Source: Betaproteobacteria bacterium
GTDB lineage: Bacteria; Pseudomonadota; Gammaproteobacteria; Burkholderiales; JAHFQX01
Assembly (NCBI GenBank): GCA_023259135.1
Contig: JAHFQX010000018.1
Coordinates: 1 to 54,213, forward strand
Length of the DNA: 54,213 bases
Direction: 5' to 3'
Shown: piece by piece, positions 1 through 11,650 of the stretch
How the letters are laid out: each line of letters starts with the position of its first letter
How positions within the stretch are numbered: the first letter of the stretch is position 1
Made by a program: the position numbers and the translations under genes
Notes under the pieces: model-generated
Told to the model about the DNA's origin: nothing
Database searches by the model: none
The model's input: only the letters and a program-made list of their open reading frames with translations

Positions 1-1043
1 AGCAGCTTCAGCGACAGTCGCCGCCGCCCCAGCGCCATCGCCAGGGCGCCGGTGGCGCCCATCGCCCCGCCCTCGGTCGGCGTCGCCACGCCGAGGAAAA
101 TCGTGCCGAGCACCAGGAAGATCAGCGCCAGCGGCGGGATCAGCACGAAGGTCACGCGCTCGGCGATCCGGGACAGCAGGCCGAGCTCGAGGAAATGGTT
201 GATCACCGAAGCCAGGAAGGCCACCCCAACCCCCACGGAGGTGGATACCACCAGCAGCATGTCCGTGGGCGCGTCGGGAGGGTAGTAGAGCTTGGCGAAC
301 GCGACGGATGCTCCTGTGGCGACGAGTGCCAGCGCGATCAGTGACGGCGTGCCGCTGCTGCCGTTGTCCTCGCGGAAGGTGCGCGCCTCCAGCGGCAATG
401 CCGGCGCCCACGACGGCTTGAAAATGGCGATGCCTGCCGCGTACAGCACGTACAGACCGGTCAGCGCCAGGCCAGGAACAAAGGCTCCCGCGTACATGTC
501 GCCCACCGACTTGCCGAGCTGATCGGCCATGACGATCAGCACTAGCGAAGGCGGGATGATCTGCGCCAGCGTGCCGGAGGCGGCGATGACGCCGGAGGCG
601 AGGCGCCGGTCGTAGCCGTAGCGCAGCATGATCGGCAGCGAGATCAGGCCCATGGAGATCACCGAGGCCGCCACCACGCCGGTGGTCGCCGCCAGCAGCG
701 CGCCTACAACGATCACGGCGAAAGCGAGGCCGCCCCGCAGCGGGCCGAACAGTTGGCCGATGGTGTCGAGCAGGTCCTCGGCCATGCCGCTGCGCTCCAG
801 GATCAGGCCCATGAAAGTGAAGAACGGCACCGCCAGCAGGGTATCGTTGGACATCACGCCCCAGACGCGCTGCGGCAGCGCCTGGAACAGCGAAGGTTCC
901 AGCAGGCCCAGTTGGATCCCGATCAGCCCGAAGAAAATGCCGTTGGCGGCGAGCGCAAAGGCCACCGGGTAGCCGAGGAGCAGAAAGACCACTAGCGCCG
1001 CGAACATCAGCGGCGCCAGGTTGTGGGTCAGCAATTCGATCAC
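1..1043 (-). CDS. dctM: TRAP transporter large permease DctM (partial, 3' end outside window)
   Basis: This is the large, channel-forming subunit of a TRAP transporter, which drives uptake of organic acids using a sodium or proton gradient. Translation from a GTG at 1043 gives a chain of hydrophobic helices with DctM hallmarks: an early VPFF segment, Gly/Ala-rich helices, and a TLAQIIPPS segment matching the family pattern GTLGxxIPPS. About 347 codons are present and the C-terminal quarter lies off the left edge. The GTG overlaps the stop of the dctQ gene before it by 4 bases (GTGA), so the two are translationally coupled. No ATG exists at this end, so the GTG start is inferred. The matching DctP receptor is not adjacent; it may lie beyond the left edge or be the one at 8672. 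Confidence 0.9.
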   Translation of the reverse strand, partial: MIELLTHNLAPLMFAALVVFLLLGYPVAFALAANGIFFGLIGIQLGLLEPSLFQALPQRVWGVMSNDTLLAVPFFTFMGLILERSGMAEDLLDTIGQLFGPLRGGLAFAVIVVGALLAATTGVVAASVISMGLISLPIMLRYGYDRRLASGVIAASGTLAQIIPPSLVLIVMADQLGKSVGDMYAGAFVPGLALTGLYVLYAAGIAIFKPSWAPALPLEARTFREDNGSSGTPSLIALALVATGASVAFAKLYYPPDAPTDMLLVVSTSVGVGVAFLASVINHFLELGLLSRIAERVTFVLIPPLALIFLVLGTIFLGVATPTEGGAMGATGALAMALGRRRLSLKL

Positions 1044-1630
1044 GCGGCCTGTCCCCGCTGCTTCCGTATCTCCTCGGCGAGTTGTTCCTCGGGGCTCGAC
1101 TCCTCCTGTTTTTCGGTCGGGTCGGGGATCAGCCCGCGCAGGAACGCGATGCGCTTGATCAACTCGGAGAGGCCCTGCAGCACCAGCAGGAAAAAGCCGA
1201 CCGGCACCATCAGCCGGGCCGGCCAGATGATCAGACCGCCGACGTTGGTCGAAACCTCATTGTGCCGGTAGGCATCGACGAACACCGGCCAGGACAGCCA
1301 CATGATGGCGATTGCCATCGGCAACAGAAAAAAGACGGTGCCGAGGATGTCGATCCCTATCTGCACCCGCTTCGACAGGCGCCCGGAGATGACGTCGATG
1401 CGCACATGCTGATTGTGCAGCAGGGCGTAGCCGGCGCAGAACAGGAACACGGCCGAAAACAGGTACCACTGGAGCTCCAGCCAGGCGTTGGAACTCATGT
1501 TGAAAGCGTAGCGGATAACCGCGTTGCCGGCGCTCACCAGCACGGCCACCAGTATCAGCCAGTAGGTGAGCCGGCCGATGCGCTCGGTGAGGCCATCGAT
1601 CAACTGGCTCAATTTCAGCAGTAAGATCAC
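1040..1630 (-). CDS. dctQ: TRAP transporter small permease DctQ
   Basis: This 196-residue inner-membrane protein has four predicted membrane helices (around residues 20-40, 55-75, 95-118 and 140-162), as usual for DctQ. The motif WLELQWYLF after helix one and the short charged loop HNQHVRIDV after helix two are typical of the family, where the region contacts DctM. The C-terminus is an unusually charged tail of about 30 residues rich in Glu, Gln and Lys. The gene is in one run with dctM (4-base overlap) and lies 170 bp downstream of the flavoprotein at 1800, so it could be the distal part of the operon that starts at 5873. Confidence 0.9.
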   Translation of the reverse strand: MILLLKLSQLIDGLTERIGRLTYWLILVAVLVSAGNAVIRYAFNMSSNAWLELQWYLFSAVFLFCAGYALLHNQHVRIDVISGRLSKRVQIGIDILGTVFFLLPMAIAIMWLSWPVFVDAYRHNEVSTNVGGLIIWPARLMVPVGFFLLVLQGLSELIKRIAFLRGLIPDPTEKQEESSPEEQLAEEIRKQRGQAA

Positions 1631-1799: not shown

Positions 1800-3734
1800 C
1801 TAGAGCCGCAGCCCGACGCGCTGGCCGTCCGCCATGGCCTCGAGGATGCCTTGCGGCGTGACGCAGTCGCCGATGAGGTATACCTCAGCCCCTTTCTCCG
1901 CCAGTTCCTGCTGCAGGCTGCGCTCTGGCGTGCCCCCCGTGGCGAGCACGATGGTGTCTGCCGTGATCACCTCGCGCAGGCCCTCGGCGTTGGTAATCAC
2001 CACCCCCTCGGGCGCGATCGCCTCGTAGTGGACGCCGGTAAGCGTGCGCACCCCCTTGGCGGCGAGGCGACGGAGCAAGGCGATGCGCGGGCTGGGATTG
2101 ATCTTGGTGGCGAGGGCCGGACCGCGGCGCAGGACCGTCACCTGCTTGCCTGCCTCGGCGAGAAACTCGGCCGTCTCGCAGCCGACGAGTTCGCCGCCGA
2201 TCACGGCGACGCGGGCACCGACCGCGGCCTCGCCGGCGAGGACAGCGAGCGCGGTGACCCCCCGGGCTTTAGCCAGGCCGGGTAAATCGGGGATCGCGGG
2301 CAGCGTGCCGCTGGCAAGGACCACCGCATCGGGCTGCTGCTCGGCGACGAGCGCCGGAGTGGCGGGTCGGCCGAGCTCGACCTGCACCCCCAGCTTGGCC
2401 AGTTGCCCCACCAGGTACCGCCGCAGGTCGGCGATCTCCTCTTTCTCGGGTGGCTTGGCGCCCGGGACCAACTGTCCGCCAAGCTCGGGTTCTTTCTCGA
2501 AGAGCACCACGCGATGGCCGCGGAGGGCGGCGACGCGGGCCGCTTCCATGCCTGCCGGGCCGCCGCCGACCACCACCACCCGCTTCGACGGCGCGGCCGG
2601 GCGCGGCCGGGACTCGCGCTCCCGGCCCAGCGCCGGATTCACGGGGCAAATGATGGGCGCGCCGGTGGCAAGGAGGCCATCACGACACTTCACGCAGCCA
2701 AGGCAGGGGCGAATCTCGTCCAGCGCGCCATCGATCACCTTGCGCGGCAGCTCGGCATCGGCGATCAGCGCGCGGCCGAAGGCGATGAAGTCGGCCTGGC
2801 CGGCGGCGAGCGCCTGCTCGCCGAGCGCCGGGGTCATGCGGCCGACGGCGATCACCGGCACGGCGACGGCCTGCTTCACGGCGGTGGCGAGCGGCAGCAA
2901 AAAGCCCGGCGTACGCGGGGTGGACGCCCACATCACCGGATGCCCATAGCCGAAGGCGGAGACATGCGCGGCAGCGGCGCCGGCGACCGCGGCCATCGCC
3001 GCGACGGCCGCTGCCTCCTCGGCAGGGATGCCCTCCGGCATGCCGATTTCCTGGCCGTTGAGGCGCACCCAGACCGGGAAATCGGGACCCACCGCATCGC
3101 GGCTGGCACGGATGATCTCAAGCAGGAACCGGGCGCGGCCGGGCAGGTCGCCGCCATATTCGTCGGTTCGCTTGTTGGTGGCGCGGGAGAGGAAGTTGGC
3201 GATGAGATAAGAGTGGGCGCCGTGAATTTCGACGCCGTCGAAGCCGGCCTCCCGTGCCCGTCGCGCGGCGCCGGCGAAGCGCTGCACGACGGCGCCAATC
3301 TCGTCCCGGCTCAGCTCGCGGGGCGCCTCGCCGCCGCCGGGGGCGAGGGGCGAAGGCCCGACGGGCTGGGCGCCGGCCAGCCGCGATTTGGCGACCCGGC
3401 CGGCATGGAATAACTGAATTGCCGCCGCCGCGCCGGCCTCGTGGATGGCGTCGGCCAGGCGCGACAGCCCGGCGAGGCAGCGATCGTCGTCAACTCTGGG
3501 CTGGTTGAGCATGCCCATGCCCTCTGGAAAATCGACGCAACTGCCCTCGACGATGACCAGTCCGGCGCCGCCCCGCGCCCGCTCGGCGTAGTAGGCCACT
3601 TGCCGCTCGGTGATCAGGCCCTCGGCCGAGGCGAAGCCGGTGCCCATGGGGGCCATGACCATCCGGTTGCGCAACTCCAGCCGTCCAATCCGCCCAGGTT
3701 TCAGGAGCCGCTCGAAGGCCAGCTCAGCGTTCAT
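1800..3734 (-). CDS. Old-yellow-enzyme family NADH:flavin oxidoreductase (2,4-dienoyl-CoA reductase FadH-like)
   Basis: This 644-residue protein has the architecture of FadH and related enoate reductases. It has an N-terminal FMN-binding TIM barrel (about 1-340, with HGAHSYLIANFLS and NKRTDEYGG), a cysteine cluster for a 4Fe-4S centre, and a C-terminal FAD/NAD(P)-binding half (VVVVGGGPAGMEAA, then VAVIGGELVGCETAEFL). Such enzymes reduce C=C bonds conjugated to a carbonyl or thioester. The start at 3734 is chosen because GGAGG lies just upstream; the frame also opens four codons earlier at a TTG. The cysteines read CxxCxxC then C after 12 residues, one residue shorter than the CxxCxxxC I expect for FadH. 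Its position after an acyl-CoA dehydrogenase and a crotonase suggests work on an unsaturated acyl-CoA, but the substrate is unknown. Confidence 0.85.
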   Translation of the reverse strand: MNAELAFERLLKPGRIGRLELRNRMVMAPMGTGFASAEGLITERQVAYYAERARGGAGLVIVEGSCVDFPEGMGMLNQPRVDDDRCLAGLSRLADAIHEAGAAAAIQLFHAGRVAKSRLAGAQPVGPSPLAPGGGEAPRELSRDEIGAVVQRFAGAARRAREAGFDGVEIHGAHSYLIANFLSRATNKRTDEYGGDLPGRARFLLEIIRASRDAVGPDFPVWVRLNGQEIGMPEGIPAEEAAAVAAMAAVAGAAAAHVSAFGYGHPVMWASTPRTPGFLLPLATAVKQAVAVPVIAVGRMTPALGEQALAAGQADFIAFGRALIADAELPRKVIDGALDEIRPCLGCVKCRDGLLATGAPIICPVNPALGRERESRPRPAAPSKRVVVVGGGPAGMEAARVAALRGHRVVLFEKEPELGGQLVPGAKPPEKEEIADLRRYLVGQLAKLGVQVELGRPATPALVAEQQPDAVVLASGTLPAIPDLPGLAKARGVTALAVLAGEAAVGARVAVIGGELVGCETAEFLAEAGKQVTVLRRGPALATKINPSPRIALLRRLAAKGVRTLTGVHYEAIAPEGVVITNAEGLREVITADTIVLATGGTPERSLQQELAEKGAEVYLIGDCVTPQGILEAMADGQRVGLRL

Positions 3735-3828
3735 TTCTTCCTCCAATCCCGGCGGTAGCGCCAGGCGCCTGCTTGGTCACGCCCTTGATTGGGGCCAACG
3801 ATAGCCATCTCCCCCAATAGGCTGGCAT

Positions 3829-5025
3829 TCAATAAGATCGGGGCATGCCAAGGACATTCTGGCCGATGAACGCCAGGATCAGGTTGGTCGAGATGGGGGC
3901 GACGCGGAAATGGCGGCTCTCCCGCCAGACCCGTTCCACGTCGAACTCGCGGGCAACGCCGAATCCGCCGTAGGTTTGCATGCACACATCGGCCGCTTTC
4001 CATGCGGCTTCCGCCGCCAGATGCTTGGCCGCGTTTGCCTCGTAGCCGCAGGGCTTGCCGGCGTCCAGCAGCATGGCGGCACGGCGCGCCATGAGGTCGG
4101 CGGCGTCGAGTTGGGCATAGGTGTCGGCGATGGGAAACTGGATGCCCTGATTGGCGCTGATCGGGCGGCCGAAGACGACCCGCTGGTTAGCATAGTCCAC
4201 CGCCTTGCGAATGAACCAGTTGCCGTTGCCGAGGATGGCGCCGCAAGCGAGGGTGCGCTCGGCATTCATGCTGGATAGGATGTAGGTAAATCCTTCGCCT
4301 TCCTCGCCGATGCGGTTTTCCGCCGGCACGATGGCATCGTTGAAGAACACTTCGTAGGTAAGGTGGTTGGTCATGATGTCGATTGGGCGGATCTCGATCG
4401 TTTTGTCACGCAGCCCCTGTTTCACATCGACCAGAAATACCGAAAGCCCATGCTTTTTGTGCTTCATTTCCTCTACCGGGGTGGTGCGGGCGAGCAGCAG
4501 CATGAGGTCGGTGTGGCCGGTGCGGGAAATCCAGATCTTCTGCCCGTTTATCACATAGCGGTTGCCATCGCGCACTGCCCGCGTCTTGAGTCTTAGGGTA
4601 TCGGTGCCGGCGCCGGGTTCGGTAACGCCGAAGGACTGCAGGCGCAGCTCCCCGGTCGCGATCTTGGGTAGGTAATGTTCCTTCTGGCTTTCGTTGCCGT
4701 GCTTGAGCACCGTGCCCATGGTGTACATCTGGGCGATGCAGGCCCCGGCGTTGCAGCCCTCCTCGTGAACGGTTTGCAGAATGACTTGAGCGGCGCGGAA
4801 CGGCAGGCCGGAGCCGCCATATTGCTCCGGAATGAGAGCCGCCAGATATCCCCCGCTGGCCATGGCGTTGACGAAGGCGTCAGGATAGTCTCCCTTTACG
4901 TCCAGATCCCGCCAGTACTTTCCGGGAAAGGCCGCACAGAGCTTGCGGACGCTGTCGCGCAGCTCCGGATAATCCCGGTCGATCCGGACTGCGCTCCCGT
5001 CATGGGTTTGTTCCGTCGCTGTCAT
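3829..5025 (-). CDS. Acyl-CoA dehydrogenase
   Basis: This 398-residue FAD enzyme oxidises an acyl-CoA at the alpha,beta position and passes electrons to ETF. Family signatures are FGVTEPGAGTD (around 132-142), the FAD/substrate strand INGQKIWISRTG (159-170) and the C-terminal YGGFGVAREFDVERVWRE. The MCAD catalytic glutamate in YEGT is absent: the aligned stretch reads VAPIST. A Glu at about residue 256 (MNAER) sits where isovaleryl-CoA and long-chain dehydrogenases carry their base, so a branched or bulky substrate is plausible (inference). GGAG lies upstream of the ATG. It is 53 bp downstream of the crotonase and 94 bp upstream of the flavoprotein, in one operon. Confidence 0.9.
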   Translation of the reverse strand: MTATEQTHDGSAVRIDRDYPELRDSVRKLCAAFPGKYWRDLDVKGDYPDAFVNAMASGGYLAALIPEQYGGSGLPFRAAQVILQTVHEEGCNAGACIAQMYTMGTVLKHGNESQKEHYLPKIATGELRLQSFGVTEPGAGTDTLRLKTRAVRDGNRYVINGQKIWISRTGHTDLMLLLARTTPVEEMKHKKHGLSVFLVDVKQGLRDKTIEIRPIDIMTNHLTYEVFFNDAIVPAENRIGEEGEGFTYILSSMNAERTLACGAILGNGNWFIRKAVDYANQRVVFGRPISANQGIQFPIADTYAQLDAADLMARRAAMLLDAGKPCGYEANAAKHLAAEAAWKAADVCMQTYGGFGVAREFDVERVWRESRHFRVAPISTNLILAFIGQNVLGMPRSY

Positions 5026-5078: not shown

Positions 5079-5873
5079 CTAGCGTCCCTTGAAAACGGGC
5101 GGGCGTTTTTCGTTGAAGGCGCGAATGCCCTCGTGGCGATCCTCGGAAGTCACCAGACGGTAATAGGCTTCCAGGGCAAAACGGTGAGACGTCTTGCGGT
5201 CCACGTCCAAGCTTACGTTCATCGACTTTTTGGCCTGCTTCACCGCCAGCGGGGCGTTGGCGCAGATTGCATTGGCGACGTCGAGCACTTCTTCCATCAG
5301 TTTCCCCGGCGCGCATATTCGATTGACCAGGCCCCATTCGAGGGCGGTCTCGGCGTTGATGGGGCGCGCGGACAGCACAAACTCTTTTGCCCGCCGCTCG
5401 CCGATGATCCGCGGTAAAACGGAAACTCCGCCGCCTCCCGGCATGATGCCGCGGCTCACTTCGGTGATGGCGAACTTGGCATGGGGAGCGCAATAGCTGA
5501 AGTCGCAGCCCAGCGTTATTTCCAATCCCCCCGCGTAGGCGACGCCGTTGACGGCCACGATGATCGGTACCGGGCAGTCGGCCATGGCGAAAAGTCCCCG
5601 CTGGCCGTCCAAATGCTGGTCCAGCCATTCCTCGTTGGTCATGTGGTTGCGTTGCTTCAGATCCCCTCCGGAGCAAAACGCTTTTTCACCGGCCCCGGTC
5701 AGCACGATGCAGCGGATATCCCCCGGCCTTTGGGTGAGCGGGACAAATATATCTCCCAGCTCGCGCATCATTTGGGTGTTCATGGCGTTGTAGACTTCCG
5801 GCCGGTTGAGCGTTACGATCATCAGCCCATTGTCGCAGTGCTCCACAATGATGGTTTCGTACTTATCCTGCAT
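5079..5873 (-). CDS. Enoyl-CoA hydratase/isomerase family protein with both catalytic Glu
   Basis: This is a 264-residue crotonase-fold protein. The oxyanion-hole region AFCSGGDLK (66-73) is intact. Two glutamates, E118 in AGGLEIT and E138 in AITEV, are spaced 20 apart as in mitochondrial enoyl-CoA hydratase (E144/E164), so genuine hydratase activity is likely. C-terminal EKRPPVFKGR is the usual family ending. It is the first gene of the leftward catabolic operon and is followed by the acyl-CoA dehydrogenase. The promoter proposed at 6133-6160 lies about 260 bp upstream, with a MITE in between. A purine-rich GGGGGAG lies just before the ATG. Confidence 0.9.
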   Translation of the reverse strand: MQDKYETIIVEHCDNGLMIVTLNRPEVYNAMNTQMMRELGDIFVPLTQRPGDIRCIVLTGAGEKAFCSGGDLKQRNHMTNEEWLDQHLDGQRGLFAMADCPVPIIVAVNGVAYAGGLEITLGCDFSYCAPHAKFAITEVSRGIMPGGGGVSVLPRIIGERRAKEFVLSARPINAETALEWGLVNRICAPGKLMEEVLDVANAICANAPLAVKQAKKSMNVSLDVDRKTSHRFALEAYYRLVTSEDRHEGIRAFNEKRPPVFKGR

Positions 5874-5927
5874 GGCTCCCCCTTCCCGATTGATTCACAG
5901 CTTCCGCCGGCATCCTTGGCAACTTAT

Positions 5928-6094
5928 CAGGGTGTTGAAAAACGCCCGAAATTCCCTTCGATACGCGCTTCGCGCTACTCAGGACGAACGGCAAGGTACT
6001 AATTCCGTTCGTCCTGAGTCGGCGGCTTGGCCGCCGTATCAAAGCCTGTCCTGAGCGAAGTCGAAGAGCGCCGTGGGCGTTTTTCAACACCCTG
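5928..6094. mobile_element. Non-autonomous MITE-like element, 167 bp
   Basis: Perfect 20-bp terminal inverted repeats (5928-5947, beginning CAGGGTGTTG; 6075-6094, ending CAACACCCTG) enclose a non-coding core. The 4-base sequence TTAT flanks both ends directly (5924-5927 and 6095-6098), as expected for a target-site duplication. The core carries further palindromic pieces (CAGGACGAACGG against CCGTTCGTCCTG) that resemble the repeat at 41292-41370. No transposase frame is present, so it must have been moved in trans. It lies between the predicted promoter and first gene of the catabolic operon, so the transcript would form a very stable hairpin in its leader. I do not assign the transposase family. 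Confidence 0.8.
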
Positions 6095-6132
6095 TTATGG
6101 GCCTTCGGGTTCGCTGCATTTAATGGGCATCA

Positions 6133-6160
6133 TTTTTATACACGGATCGGCCGATGTCAA
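6133..6160 (-). promoter_or_regulatory. Predicted sigma70 promoter of the leftward catabolic operon
   Basis: On the minus strand a perfect -35 hexamer TTGACA (6155-6160) is followed 16 bases later by TAAAAA (6133-6138); an overlapping TATAAA (6135-6140) would be at spacing 14. It abuts the LacI-type palindrome at 6161-6172, which would lie just upstream of the -35 box. It faces the crotonase at 5873. Prediction from sequence only. Confidence 0.5.
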
Positions 6161-6172
6161 TGAATCGTTTCA
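6161..6172. promoter_or_regulatory. Putative LacI-family operator upstream of the leftward operon
   Basis: TGAATCGTTTCA is a 12-base palindrome with one mismatched pair and the central CG typical of LacI/GalR-family operators. The half-site TGAAACG, on the minus strand here, recurs exactly in the palindrome at 8482-8493 next to the regulator's own transcription unit. It touches the -35 box of the predicted promoter. Confidence 0.5.
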
Positions 6173-6239
6173 ATTTGATCGTCAGCAAGCAGGCAGAGCC
6201 CGGCTCCGGATATTCTTGGGGGTTGCGGAAGGGGTCGGA

Positions 6240-7310
6240 TTACCGGCGGCGAACGGCTGCGCGGCGGGTTGCGGTTTTATTGCCCGCAACGGTCGGAGGG
6301 GCGGCGCAAGACTGGCGAACAATGAGTTCCGTGGGCAAAATGATCCGATGGGGCTTACTTTTCTTGGGTTGCGTCTCTCCCAGCCGCTCCAGCAGGAGTT
6401 GGGCCGCTACCGTGCCCATTCCCGCGAAATCTTTCCGGATCACCGTGATGGATGGCGTGGCGAATTCGGCGAGGTCTGAATCACAGCCGTTGATGATGGA
6501 AATATCCTCCGGAATGCGGAGATGGGCTTCATTGATGGCGCGCAGCACGCCGGGCAGCATCATCGTGCCGCCGATGATGATGGCGGAGGGGGGGGACTCC
6601 ATCGCCAGCAGGTCCGTCGTGCTTCGATAGGCTGAAGCGACCATGAAATCGCTGCGAACGATCAGCTGCTCTGCGGGGATCAATCCGCGGGCGGCATAAG
6701 CGCCGCGGAATCCGGCCTCGGTTTCGCGAGCCGGCCGGACCACCATGCTACCGGCCAGCAGAGCGATGCGTCGGTGGCCGAGTTCCAGCAAATAGTCGGT
6801 GGCCAAGGCGCTGCCGCCGCGATGATCTATCCATACCGTGTCGGTGTCGAGATCAAGTTCCCGGTCCAGCAGGATCATGGGTACGTTGACGGCCTTCAGG
6901 GCTTTTCGGAGTTTCGGTGAGCCCTCGTCGCATAGGGTCATCAACAGCCCGTCCATGCGGCGCCGCAGGAACATCTCGATGATCATCAATTCATGCTCGA
7001 CCGAGTCATTGCCGTTGGCAAACACTAAGACATAGCCGGCTTTGTTCAATATCGGTTCCGCGCTATTGATGAATCCAACCATCATCGGAAAGGTCAGATT
7101 CCGCGCCAAGCTGCCGATCATCTTGGTGGAGTCGGTGCGCATGCTTTGCGCGATTGGATGGGGGCGATAACCGAATTTCCGAATGACCGCTTCCACCCGC
7201 CGCCGATTCTCCGGGCTGACCGATTTATGCCCGTTGAGAACGCGGGATACCGTCCCGACAGACACGGAAGCCGCATGGGCGATATCGCGAATGGTCGGTT
7301 TTTTGATCAA
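6240..7310 (-). CDS. LacI-family transcriptional regulator
   Basis: This 356-residue repressor-type regulator has an N-terminal helix-turn-helix (TIRDIAHAASVSVGTVSRVL, about residues 6-25) and hinge helix (PHPIAQSMRT), followed by a periplasmic-binding-protein-like ligand domain to about 340. The frame opens at a TTG (7310) with AAGGA about 8 bases upstream; I accept this because the HTH begins immediately and the next Met is far inside the domain. It lies 13 bp after the CoA-transferase stop, so the two are likely co-transcribed. Two palindromes with central CG (6161-6172 and 8482-8493) are candidate operators, implying autoregulation and control of both catabolic arms. The inducer is unknown. 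Confidence 0.9.
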   Translation of the reverse strand: MIKKPTIRDIAHAASVSVGTVSRVLNGHKSVSPENRRRVEAVIRKFGYRPHPIAQSMRTDSTKMIGSLARNLTFPMMVGFINSAEPILNKAGYVLVFANGNDSVEHELMIIEMFLRRRMDGLLMTLCDEGSPKLRKALKAVNVPMILLDRELDLDTDTVWIDHRGGSALATDYLLELGHRRIALLAGSMVVRPARETEAGFRGAYAARGLIPAEQLIVRSDFMVASAYRSTTDLLAMESPPSAIIIGGTMMLPGVLRAINEAHLRIPEDISIINGCDSDLAEFATPSITVIRKDFAGMGTVAAQLLLERLGETQPKKSKPHRIILPTELIVRQSCAAPPTVAGNKTATRRAAVRRR

Positions 7311-7323
7311 CAGTTATTCCTTC

Positions 7324-8460
7324 TCAGGCCGAGAATTCGGCGCGAATCTTATCCGCGTGTTCCCCGAGAGCGGGAGCCCGGCCAATTCTATCAGCCTCCC
7401 CGGCGATGCGCAGGGGGGGCGCGACGATTTGCAGGGGCCCTTTCTCGGTTTCCATGGAGGCACGCCGCAGCGCCGGATGCTTGGCCAAATCGGCCACTTC
7501 ATTGATGACGCCGTAGGCTATGGCGGCCCGGCGCAGCCGATCAACCATCGTAGGGCGATCAAGGTGGGAGAAAATCTCCTCGATTGCGGCATTCAAGGAG
7601 TTCCGATTGATGTTGCGGGCCGGATTGTCCGCGTATTCCGGCTGCTTGGCGAGTTCCGGGCGTTGCAGAACGATTTCACAAAACCTGAGCCACTCCCGCT
7701 GGTTTTGCACGGCGATAACCAGTTGCGTCCCATCCCCGATGCGGAAGGCGCCATAAGGCGCGATCAGAGAGTGGCTAAATCCGGTCCGTGGCGGCGCCTT
7801 CCCCGTCAGTTCGTATAGCGAGAGAAAGACGCTCATCCAATCCGCCAGGCAGTCGAACAGCGAAATCGACAAGCCCGCGCCGACGCCGGTGCGCTGACGG
7901 GCGACGATGGCTTGCAGAATGCCGGCGTAGGCATTGGTGGCGCAGACCATATCGCATATCGAGATCCCGCATCTGCCGGGGGCCTCCGGGGTCCCAGAAA
8001 CGGCGGCCAGCCCGCTTTCGGCCTGAATCAACAGATCATACGCCTTCATGTCCCGGTAAGGTCCGTCCAGGCCATAACCGCTGACGTCGCAGGTGATGAG
8101 CCTGGGGTTGCGGGCACGCAATGCATCCGAGCCGAACCCCGCGCGCTGGGTGGCGCCGGGGGCCAGGTTCTGAATGAAGACATCGGCTTGATCTATGATT
8201 TTGTGCAGCAGCCCGGCATCCTCGGGGTTCTTGAGGTCCAGCGTGATGGATTCCTTGCCCCGGTTAAGATAGGCGAAAAACAGGCTATCCCCTTTCCAGT
8301 GGGAATCATAGGCTCGGGCGAAATCGCCTTCCAGGCGCTCCACCTTGATGACCCTGGCACCGGCTTCCGCCAAGCGCGTCCCGCAAAATGGCGCGGCCAC
8401 GGCTTGACCGATTTCGACGACCAGAATGCCTGCCAATGCATCGTTCATCATTGCCGTCAC
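7324..8460 (-). CDS. CaiB/BaiF (family III) CoA-transferase
   Basis: This 378-residue protein should transfer CoA from an acyl-CoA donor to a free carboxylic acid, the activation step for an imported substrate. The N-terminus (GILVVEIGQAVAAPFCGTRL) and RGKESITLDLKNP are class III signatures. The aspartate expected to form the acyl-anhydride intermediate is D142 in KAYDLLIQ, after DGPYRD. The start is a GTG at 8460 with AAGGGGG just upstream; ATGs lie three and four codons in. The gene faces away from dctP across 211 bp containing a LacI-type operator, and leads into the lacI-type gene. The CoA acceptor cannot be deduced. Confidence 0.88.
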   Translation of the reverse strand: MTAMMNDALAGILVVEIGQAVAAPFCGTRLAEAGARVIKVERLEGDFARAYDSHWKGDSLFFAYLNRGKESITLDLKNPEDAGLLHKIIDQADVFIQNLAPGATQRAGFGSDALRARNPRLITCDVSGYGLDGPYRDMKAYDLLIQAESGLAAVSGTPEAPGRCGISICDMVCATNAYAGILQAIVARQRTGVGAGLSISLFDCLADWMSVFLSLYELTGKAPPRTGFSHSLIAPYGAFRIGDGTQLVIAVQNQREWLRFCEIVLQRPELAKQPEYADNPARNINRNSLNAAIEEIFSHLDRPTMVDRLRRAAIAYGVINEVADLAKHPALRRASMETEKGPLQIVAPPLRIAGEADRIGRAPALGEHADKIRAEFSA

Positions 8461-8481
8461 AACAACCCCCTTGGTTCAAAA

Positions 8482-8493
8482 TGAAACGTTTCC
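8482..8493. promoter_or_regulatory. Putative LacI-family operator in the divergent CoA-transferase/TRAP region
   Basis: TGAAACGTTTCC contains a perfect 10-base palindrome GAAACGTTTC (8483-8492) with central CG, the form recognised by LacI/PurR/GalR proteins. It lies 22 bp upstream of the CoA-transferase GTG and about 180 bp upstream of dctP. TATAAA (8501-8506) and, on the other strand, TATAGT are adjacent, but I could not assign matching -35 boxes with confidence. Confidence 0.6.
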
Positions 8494-8671: not shown

Positions 8672-9685
8672 ATGAGCAAGGTCCGAATGATCCAATGTGG
8701 AGCGCTGGCCGGGGTCCTATGGATGGCGGTCGCCACCGGTGTCCAGGCTGACCCGATCAAGATGCGGATTTCGGTCGATAGCCCGGCGCAGCACGTTAAA
8801 ACCAAAATTATGAGCAACTATGTCGCTGCGCTGAAGACCAAGGCCGGCAACAGGCTGGACATTGAGCTGTTCCACAGCGGCCAGCTTTTCAACGACCGCG
8901 ATGTGAGCAAGGCGATCCGCCAGGGCGCGGTGGAGATGGCGGCGCCCGGCGTTTGGCTGCTGGGGGGGATCGAGCCCAACGCCAACTTTTCGTCCTTGCC
9001 GGTATTCTATGGGATGGAGCTTGAACAGATGCGCAAGGTTACCGACGGCGAGCTCGGTCGGGAACTGAACAAGAGCCTGGAAACCAAGCTCAACGCGAAG
9101 ATCCTCGGGAGTTGGCTGGAAATGGGCTCGGCGCAGTGGTACAGCACCGGCAAGCCGATCAACAGCTACCAGGATATCCAGGGGATGACCATCCGCACCC
9201 CCGGCGGGGCGGCCAATGAGCTGCGGTTGAAGTTCTTCAAGGCCAATGTCGTCACCATAGCCTATCCCGACCTTGCGCTGGCCCTGTCCCAAGGCAAGGC
9301 TGATGGGTTCATTTCAGCTCACGACAGCGTTGTCTCCGCCAAGATGTGGGAAGCTGGCGTAAAGCACAGCTTTGAGGATTATCAACTCGCCGCTCACTAT
9401 ATTCCGATGCTTAACCGGGATTTCTGGGACAAGTTGTCGCCCGACCTGCAAAAGATTTTGGCCGATACCTGGCAGGAGCAAGTGCCCGCCCAGCGCGCGG
9501 CGGGGGTGGCGGCGCAAGCCCAAGCTCGGGATGTCTTGATCGCCAATGGAGTCAAGATCGTTACCCCCGATTCGAAGACCAGAGCAGCGGCGCGCGCGCG
9601 GATGATGCAGGAATACGATCAATGGGTTAAGGCGGTCAAGGTCGACCCGGAGTTCGCCAGGAAATTGTTGCAGGCTTTCCGTTAA
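8672..9685 (+). CDS. dctP: TRAP transporter substrate-binding protein DctP
   Basis: This 337-residue periplasmic receptor delivers an organic anion to the DctQM permease encoded next. A Sec signal peptide (about residues 1-26, ending GVQA before DPIKM) precedes the DctP fold. The family region GMTIRTPGGAANELRLKFF (about 170-188) contains the arginine that normally pairs with the ligand carboxylate. GGAGG lies 10 bases before the ATG. It heads the dctP-dctQ-dctM operon and is transcribed divergently from the CoA-transferase, suggesting it binds the acid that enzyme activates. A strong stem-loop follows the stop codon. Confidence 0.93.
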   Translation: MSKVRMIQCGALAGVLWMAVATGVQADPIKMRISVDSPAQHVKTKIMSNYVAALKTKAGNRLDIELFHSGQLFNDRDVSKAIRQGAVEMAAPGVWLLGGIEPNANFSSLPVFYGMELEQMRKVTDGELGRELNKSLETKLNAKILGSWLEMGSAQWYSTGKPINSYQDIQGMTIRTPGGAANELRLKFFKANVVTIAYPDLALALSQGKADGFISAHDSVVSAKMWEAGVKHSFEDYQLAAHYIPMLNRDFWDKLSPDLQKILADTWQEQVPAQRAAGVAAQAQARDVLIANGVKIVTPDSKTRAAARARMMQEYDQWVKAVKVDPEFARKLLQAFR

Positions 9686-9742: not shown

Positions 9743-9788
9743 CTGCACACGGCGATTCAGCCTTGATTAGACTTTGGAAAGGAATGAA

Positions 9789-10310
9789 ATGTTGCGCGCA
9801 CTGCTATCCGGATGGAATTGGCTCGAACGCAACCTGATCGGCCTGCTGGCGATTGCCGCGCTGGCCCTCGCCACTTACCAGATGATTGGGCGATACTTTT
9901 CGTCTGCTGGCCTGCCGATATCCTGGACGGGCGAAATCATCATCTACCTGATCGTCTGGGCGGTGTTCGTGGCCGCCAGCCTGCTGGTCCACGAGGATGC
10001 CCATGTCCGCGCCGACTTGGTGTTGCGGCTGTTGCCGGCGAAATCCCACCGGCCGGTGGAGATTTTCAACATTGTTTTTGCCTTGGTCTTTTGCCTGGTG
10101 TTGACGTATTACGGCGTTCTGGCGGCGCTTGACTCGTGGCAAATGGACGAGCGGTCGATCACTGCCCTGCGTTTTCCAATGTGGGCTTATTACGCCGCCT
10201 TGCCGACGGGCTTCGCTTTAATGGCATTGCGCTATATCCGGCGGCTCTATCTTTATTTGCTCCGTTACGATCCGGAAACGATGTCGGTGCATTCAGGCCG
10301 TGAAAGTTGA
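9789..10310 (+). CDS. dctQ: TRAP transporter small permease DctQ
   Basis: This is the small membrane subunit of the P-Q-M transporter. Starting at ATG 9789 it has 173 residues; the frame extends five codons further to a TTG, but GGAAAGG directly precedes 9789, so the ATG is preferred. Four helices are visible, the family motif SWTGEIIIYLIVW is in the helix one-two region, and HEDAHVRADLVL follows helix two. The last 20 residues are polar. It lies after the dctP stem-loop and 59 bp before dctM. Confidence 0.92.
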   Translation: MLRALLSGWNWLERNLIGLLAIAALALATYQMIGRYFSSAGLPISWTGEIIIYLIVWAVFVAASLLVHEDAHVRADLVLRLLPAKSHRPVEIFNIVFALVFCLVLTYYGVLAALDSWQMDERSITALRFPMWAYYAALPTGFALMALRYIRRLYLYLLRYDPETMSVHSGRES

Positions 10311-10369: not shown

Positions 10370-11650
10370 GTGTCGAATGTTTTACTCGGACTGTTCTTTG
10401 TCTTCTTGGCCAGTGGCATGCCGATTTTCTTGGTCCTCGGCATGACGGCGATCATATTGTTCTGGGTGGATGGGCAGCCGTTAGTCAGTATTGCCCAGAA
10501 GATCGTCGATCAGTTCAATTCCGACACCCTGATGTCGGTGCCGTTCTTCGTCATCGCCGCCACCTTCATGCAGCGCGGCGGGGTGGCCGGGGCGCTGGTG
10601 GATTTCGCCGGCGCCTGGACCGGGCGCCTGCGGGGCGGTCTTGGCCTCGTCTGCGTGTTCGGTTGCACCATTTTCGCCGCCATCTCAGGTTCGAGCGTGG
10701 CGACGGCGCTGGCCATGGGCACGATCCTGGTGCCCGCGATGCTATCGCGCAACTATGAGCGACCGTTCGCCTTGGGCGTGGTGGGCGCCTCCGGCACCCT
10801 CGGCATTCTGATCCCGCCTAGCTTGGCCATGATCCTGTATGCCATCCTCGCCGAGGAATCGGTGCCGCGCCTGTTTCTCGCCGGCGTGGTGCCCGGCTTG
10901 ATTCAGGCGTGCATCTTCGCTCTCTATGTGATGTGGTACGCCCGCCGCAACAATTATCCGCGCGAGAAAACCCTGTCCCGGGAGGAGTTCATCCGCGTCA
11001 ACCTGCGCGCGCTGCCGGCCTTGGCGGTCCCGGTCATCATCGCCGTCGGCATCTACGGTGGCGTCGTCACCATCACCGAGGCCGCGGCGTTTGCCGCGGT
11101 TGTCGTGCTGATCGTCAGCGCTAGCGTCTACAAGGGTTTTAGCTGGCGCGAATCGATCGGCGTGATGGGCGACGCGATGAAAAGCGGCGCCAGCATCCTG
11201 GTGATCGTGGCCACCGCACTAGTGTTCGGTCATTGGATGACCGAAGCCGGCGGGCCGGCGCGCATCGTCAAGTTCATCGTCGACAACGGCTTTAGCGCCT
11301 GGCAATTCCTGCTGGCGATTAACGGCATCCTGCTGATTCTGGGCATGTTCCTGGAAGGGGCTTCGATCATGCTGATCACCCTGCCGTTGCTGGTGCCGGT
11401 GCTTAAGCCGCTGGGCATCGACCCGGTGCATTTCGCCGTGATCATCGTCATCAATCTGGAACTCGCCCTGGTGACGCCCCCGGTCGGCCTCAACCTCTAT
11501 GTGCTTTCCGGCATCACCCAGGCGCCGATGTCCGAGGCCATCAAGGGAGTCACTCCGTTTATTGTCCTCCTTGTCGGGCTGCTGATCGCGGTGACCTATG
11601 TTCCCGAATTGTCGCTGTGGCTGCCCAATCTGGTTTACGGGGCGAGGTGA
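10370..11650 (+). CDS. dctM: TRAP transporter large permease DctM
   Basis: This 426-residue multi-helix transporter is a complete DctM. Signatures include SVPFFVIAATFMQRGG (about 58-73), FAAISGSSVATALAMG, GASGTLGILIPPSLAMILY (about 140-158) and near the end NLELALVTPPVGLNLYVL. It starts at GTG 10370 with AAGGA 8 bases upstream. With dctP and dctQ it forms a full TRAP system for an organic acid. It shows no close similarity by eye to the partial dctM at the left edge, so the two systems are probably not a recent duplication. It converges with mpl 94 bp downstream. Confidence 0.93.
   Translation: MSNVLLGLFFVFLASGMPIFLVLGMTAIILFWVDGQPLVSIAQKIVDQFNSDTLMSVPFFVIAATFMQRGGVAGALVDFAGAWTGRLRGGLGLVCVFGCTIFAAISGSSVATALAMGTILVPAMLSRNYERPFALGVVGASGTLGILIPPSLAMILYAILAEESVPRLFLAGVVPGLIQACIFALYVMWYARRNNYPREKTLSREEFIRVNLRALPALAVPVIIAVGIYGGVVTITEAAAFAAVVVLIVSASVYKGFSWRESIGVMGDAMKSGASILVIVATALVFGHWMTEAGGPARIVKFIVDNGFSAWQFLLAINGILLILGMFLEGASIMLITLPLLVPVLKPLGIDPVHFAVIIVINLELALVTPPVGLNLYVLSGITQAPMSEAIKGVTPFIVLLVGLLIAVTYVPELSLWLPNLVYGAR

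Follow-up and report, generated by a model that had tools for sequence, protein, structure and literature searches.

In a 2014 survey of LacI regulons, 176 of the 182 groups with an assigned pathway serve carbohydrates and the rest nucleosides and similar compounds, according to its main text (PMC4052901). The same text gives even palindromes with a central CG, together with autoregulation, as the rule for local LacI regulators, and reports palindromes of 16–22 nt as operators of the family (PMC4052901). Catabolic regulons of the local type collected in RegPrecise, as that text presents them, place the regulator gene within the cluster, comprise few target operons, and have sites upstream of transporter and enzyme genes that are in tandem in some genomes; all of this holds for the locus described here, whereas its targets are TRAP, CoA-transferase, beta-oxidation-type and 2-oxoacid-oxidoreductase-like genes (PMC4052901). 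The terms CoA and TRAP are absent from the main text of the survey (PMC4052901). Among titles and abstract openings, mostly from outside the subscription journals, none describes a LacI regulon with TRAP, acyl-CoA dehydrogenase/CoA transferase, aromatic/CoA or itaconate genes; nor does any describe one with PrpD and a 2-oxoacid oxidoreductase (IOR), a statement about those titles and openings and not a claim of absence from print.

The regulator resembles most closely the RbsR/PurR branch of the family. Its closest relatives are RbsR (199.9 bits) and PurR (191.5 bits) among curated families and chains of PurR and the ribose repressor among solved structures, and its putative operators have the same palindrome geometry with a central CG. 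Two of the five distant regulator homologues fetched (37% identity), L058 and L060, lie by eye in ribose-type clusters, and a third, L056, stands beside TRAP genes. Neither identity is supported, however: the scores fall short of the cut-offs for RbsR (199.9 bits against 382 for NF047341, 181.4 against 531 for NF007743) and PurR (191.5 against 501 for NF007979), and the recognition-helix stretch reads VGTVSR instead of TTVSH. No ribose or purine genes were seen at the locus, where the neighbours are TRAP, CoA-transferase, crotonase, acyl-CoA dehydrogenase and flavoprotein genes.

Genes of the locus

The window is the whole stretch of DNA analysed, 54,213 nucleotides. The genes considered are as follows.

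1800..3746, minus strand: FadH/old-yellow-enzyme type flavoprotein (PF00724 and PF07992)
3829..5025, minus strand: acyl-CoA dehydrogenase (PF00441, PF02770, PF02771)
5079..5873, minus strand: crotonase-family enoyl-CoA hydratase/isomerase (PF00378)
6240..7310, minus strand: LacI-family regulator (PF00356 and PF13377, over cut-off)
7324..8460, minus strand: CoA-transferase family III (PF02515, 2.4e-100)
8672..9685, plus strand: TRAP solute-binding protein DctP (PF03480)
9774..10310, plus strand: TRAP small permease DctQ (PF04290)
10370..11650, plus strand: TRAP large permease DctM (PF06808)

The regulator has an N-terminal LacI helix–turn–helix (HTH) domain (PF00356, 61.6 bits against a cut-off of 27) and a periplasmic-binding-protein-like effector domain (PF13377, 121.6 bits against 26.5), and its gene at 6240–7310 is the sole PF00356 match in the assembly (2,581,219 bases, 98.99% complete). 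The CoA-transferase gene lies upstream of lacI with 13 bases between its stop and the lacI start, so that the two probably form one transcription unit behind operator 2 (below), and the regulator would therefore be autoregulated. Behind the flavoprotein gene, a second TRAP dctQ (1040–1630) is followed by a DctM-like frame reaching the contig end; no dctP was seen with it before the contig ends (window 1–1630).

Putative operators within the window

The first-pass annotation had described two 12-mers sharing the half-site TGAAACG, one touching a perfect −35 box that faces the crotonase operon and the other between the CoA-transferase–lacI unit and the TRAP operon. Both were found exactly where it had placed them, and in the surroundings it gave.

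6155..6160, minus strand: TTGACA, a −35-like hexamer adjoining operator 1, invariant in four sequences
6161..6172, minus strand: operator 1, which precedes the crotonase operon and reads TGAAACGATTCA on the minus strand; identical 12-mer in 4/4 genomes
8482..8493, no strand: operator 2, between CoA-transferase–lacI (minus) and the TRAP operon (plus); identical 12-mer in 4/4 genomes

Operator 1 reads TGAATCGTTTCA on the plus strand (6161–6172), with its half-site TGAAACG on the minus strand; operator 2 reads TGAAACGTTTCC (8482–8493), with the half-site on the plus strand, and is bounded by the starts of the CoA-transferase (8460, minus) and TRAP dctP (8672, plus) genes. Both differ from the perfect palindrome TGAAACGTTTCA at a single base, and at no more than one mismatch they are the only matches in the window, two against 0.07 expected (mean of 100 dinucleotide shuffles, sd 0.26, none reaching 2). 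At up to three mismatches the window has no excess (14 against 11.31). The perfect TTGACA (6160–6155, minus) that faces the crotonase operon has a weak best −10 candidate, AAAAAT, at a spacer of 17. Positions 5920–6110, between operator 1 and the crotonase start, hold a dispersed repeat with inverted arms. It gives 20 match rows in the genome, spread over 12 contigs and including this copy, and because of it the distance from operator to start is 294 b here, against 62–126 b in the orthologues.

A putative third operator elsewhere in the genome

Drawn up from the two window sites alone, the pattern TGRAWCGWTTCM matches three places in the whole assembly: operators 1 and 2, and positions 849–860 of contig C78 (operator 3). 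The same pattern written backwards matches none. About 2.1 places are expected from base composition, and the number is therefore not evidence; the place of the third site is. It lies between a divergent MmgE/PrpD-like gene (minus) and a gene for a 1161-aa protein (plus). The PrpD-like gene is cut by the contig end and is 91% identical to a gene of the orthologous locus L034 that has both MmgE/PrpD domains. We call the 1161-aa gene IOR-like (2-oxoacid-oxidoreductase-like) because its L034 orthologue, itself cut by the locus end, scores 27.3 for the pyruvate-ferredoxin-oxidoreductase domain against a Pfam cut-off of 27.4, and a 49% identical gene at L035:13387–16896 exceeds that cut-off (60.3). 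The weight of the motif lies in two of the three strict places flanking the sole lacI and in an operator standing at all three positions in 4/4 genomes.

With looser matching, the genome holds 54 places at up to two mismatches to TGAAACGTTTCA (26 for the control) and, at up to one, four beyond operators 1–3. Three of these were set aside, being inside long frames that by eye are NuoF-like (C6), sensor-like (C53) and dihydrofolate-reductase-like (C70); the fourth, TGAAACGTTTCG at C46:62101, is itself within a short frame of doubtful status and precedes a short-chain-dehydrogenase-like frame by about 160–210 b.

Conservation in orthologous loci

A regulator 88–90% identical to that of the window turned up at three loci, L034, L035 and L036, in one scan of the genome collection. 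They belong to metagenome-assembled genomes (MAGs) of which two are titled Betaproteobacteria bacterium and one Polaromonas sp.; the conservation reported below rests on these three, all fairly close relatives. Further afield, the other 398 genomes of the order sample contain five regulator homologues at 1e-60, none above 41% identity, the best homologue among 60 nearer relatives is 34% identical, and 0/368 other genomes of the class sample have one at 1e-75.

Each orthologous locus carries the TRAP operon, CoA transferase, lacI, crotonase, acyl-CoA dehydrogenase, PrpD and IOR; the flavoprotein gene is present in L034 and L036, with no match in L035. Both sites reported by the first-pass annotation are kept in all three loci, and with the third site added, operators occupy 12/12 positions (three sites in four genomes, the window's own included). 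Operator 1 is TGAAACGATTCA and operator 2 is GGAAACGTTTCA in 4/4 genomes; operator 3 is GGAAACGTTTCA in three and GGAATCGTTTCA in L035. In the orthologues, operator 3 is on the same contig as the crotonase gene, about 7.0–8.5 kb from its start, which suggests that contigs C78 and C60 may lie side by side in the genome of the window. Extra operator copies, CGAAACGATTCA, precede crotonase once in L034 and twice in L036, and the operator–promoter unit there is tandemly duplicated (L034:11136–11187, L036:6942–7008); CGAAACGATTCA and TGAAACGATTCA copies are 40 b apart in both loci, and the third L036 copy is at 15 b.

These conservation data bear on the proposal that the palindromes arose by chance and merely look conserved through the close kinship of the genomes. 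That the regulators are 88–90% identical and that the genome-wide count is near expectation speak for it. Yet operators 1 and 2 are invariant within intergenic sequence that has otherwise diverged and acquired indels, while four-fold degenerate sites of lacI are 79–82% identical between the window and the orthologues. The longest invariant run in the four-sequence alignment is TGAAACGATTCATTGACA (18 bases) at site 1 and TGGAAACGTTTCAT (14 bases) at site 2, each with its operator inside; column shuffles with gapped columns removed (the IG2 run counting as 24 there) reached the observed run in 0/20000 and 7/20000 cases. The footprint of site 3 is not significant, in keeping with a chance origin: its longest run, of 9, is not the operator and was reached by 17501/20000 column shuffles, because the region is conserved throughout and the L035 change falls inside the operator. 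The same motif is nevertheless kept in three separate regions. Chance, which the genome-wide count alone would not reject, is disfavoured by position and conservation, and we consider it scarcely credible.

Matches outside the locus weigh against the regulon. Besides nine on-locus places, the broad pattern TGRAWCGWTTCM has 15 off-locus ones across the orthologous genomes (six in G764, three in G765, six in G766), with backwards control counts of 0, 0 and 1; 13/15 of the off-locus places begin TGG, a form absent at the conserved sites. The narrow form TGAAACGWTTCM occurs at nine on-locus places and a single off-locus one (G764 C23:14152), which lies, by eye, in an ABC-permease-like frame. The control comprised 14 loci (57,951 bases) of the order sample, each surrounding one of the closest homologues of the acyl-CoA dehydrogenase or the CoA transferase. 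Nine came from the 109 other genomes in which a dehydrogenase match reached the cut-off, and the transferase contributed 5/5. A simple regular expression found no LacI-type HTH in them, and the motif matched once, in a frame that by eye is thiamine-enzyme-like. As to matches unlinked to the regulator, on which the first-pass regulon was to be judged, the own genome thus has one further strict place, itself conserved beside catabolic genes, and the orthologues have 15 off-locus. With both sites conserved and few strict matches in the own genome, the regulon idea therefore holds, in a larger form than proposed: the original units stand, and the PrpD-family and 2-oxoacid-oxidoreductase-like genes, which that version lacked, are also included.

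A different regulator could bind the palindromes, the LacI-family protein having other targets, since its binding here is deduced from sequence. Similar palindromes lie near other LacI-type genes (38–40% identical, in other genomes): GGAAACGTTTCC at L059:12318–12329 and GGAAACGTTTCT at L057:10414–10425, within about 3 kb and 1 kb, respectively. The motif is therefore not unique to this orthologous group, and these palindromes may themselves be operators, belonging to a broader class of motifs. However, palindromes with a central CG fit the LacI family, two of the sites flank the only LacI-family gene found in the assembly, and in 4/4 loci the orthologous regulator is accompanied by the sites, which makes a different regulator improbable.

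Candidate substrates

TakP belongs to a TRAP transporter, for which it binds 2-oxo acids, as the source describes it (PMC1839085). It is matched (2hzk, 1.6e-129) by a second DctP protein, L034:15640–16761, encoded co-directionally behind PrpD and operator 3; a TakP-like gene is so placed, on the strand of PrpD, in L034 and L036. None was seen in the window or the C78 stretch, nor did L035 give a match. In L035, PrpD is followed on its own strand, behind operator 3, by a gene resembling HMG-CoA lyase and by a second one of the IOR-like kind. The TRAP binding protein of the window (8672–9685), in contrast to the L034 protein, gives weaker matches to many TRAP binders, the best at 6.4e-24. Two short pieces at L034:16857–17077, between PrpD and the TakP-like gene, resemble the L035 HMG-CoA-lyase-like gene (80% over 59 aa, 92% over 24 aa), and judged by these alignments look like its decayed remnant. 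At L035:19880–21029 the IOR-like match is split into two overlapping pieces, which suggests a frameshift or assembly error.

Itaconate or aconitate was considered, given the resemblance of PrpD to cis-aconitate decarboxylases; PrpD gives a better match to iminodisuccinate epimerase (4.4e-61) than to IRG1 (1.5e-46). Branched 2-oxo acids (IOR, the TakP-like protein, the L035 HMG-CoA-lyase-like gene and acyl-CoA carboxylase genes of L034) and a carnitine-like route were also weighed, and none is proposed with confidence. Among the curated-model matches listed, the general TRAP models NF037995 and TIGR00786 alone exceed their cut-offs, and we therefore claim no substrate.

Discussion

The analyses presented here are best explained by an autoregulated local LacI-family repressor regulon with three operators that would govern an acid-degradation route, a reading to which we assign a probability of roughly 0.78. 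The regulator (6240–7310) would recognise sites reading (T/G/C)GAAACG(A/T)TTCA in three promoter regions: putative operator 2 serving CoA-transferase–lacI and the TRAP operon, putative operator 1 the crotonase/acyl-CoA dehydrogenase/flavoprotein genes, and putative operator 3 the divergent PrpD and IOR genes. When substrate is absent, the regulator most likely blocks transcription at all three, and the acid or a breakdown intermediate would release it. The gene set suggests a route of TRAP uptake, activation by the CoA transferase, oxidation and hydration of the CoA ester, and a 2-oxoacid oxidoreductase step. One regulator thus appears, on the genomic evidence, to control uptake and breakdown of one organic acid through three conserved operators, as the first-pass annotation had put forward for uptake, activation and oxidation with two. 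From the sites, their conservation, the gene sets and the sole lacI, all computed here, we infer binding, repression, an effector and the service of all the genes to one acid. Against a regulon stand a symmetric core of about 12 nt, with the central CG in all sites, where the family criterion is 16–22 nt, the near-expected number of motif matches genome-wide, the footprint result at site 3, the 15 off-locus places of the broad pattern, and a crotonase start further from operator 1 than in the orthologues.

The positions of the sites relative to promoters also bear on the sign of regulation. An invariant TTGACA immediately precedes operator 3, so that a dimer bound to this site would lie over the promoter, and operator 2 lies among promoter-like sequence between the divergent units. 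Operator 1, in 4/4 genomes, adjoins the upstream side of its invariant TTGACA, and the same regulator and sites might accordingly activate the crotonase operon while repressing or autoregulating elsewhere. A dimer beside a −35 box can, however, also block polymerase. Members of the family mostly bind DNA as ligand-free repressors, according to the survey's passage on RbsR (PMC4052901). We regard activation as unlikely, though worth keeping in mind, and prefer repression at all three promoters.

In form this is an ordinary LacI regulon; its non-sugar target set is unusual. We would give even odds to the suggestion that a LacI repressor of the sugar/purine branch has been turned to sensing an acyl-CoA or a carboxylic acid, whether a 2-oxo acid or some other, and that it governs the whole route of uptake, CoA activation and oxidation, in which a 2-oxoacid:ferredoxin oxidoreductase and an enzyme of the MmgE/PrpD family take part.

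The proposed regulon is a clean one, with one regulator, three conserved operators and five transcription units on two contigs. Common operators predict which enzymes act together on one acid, as gene order alone would not in a fragmented assembly. If the effector is a non-carbohydrate, the LacI family, whose known ligands are mainly sugars and nucleosides, would gain a further kind.
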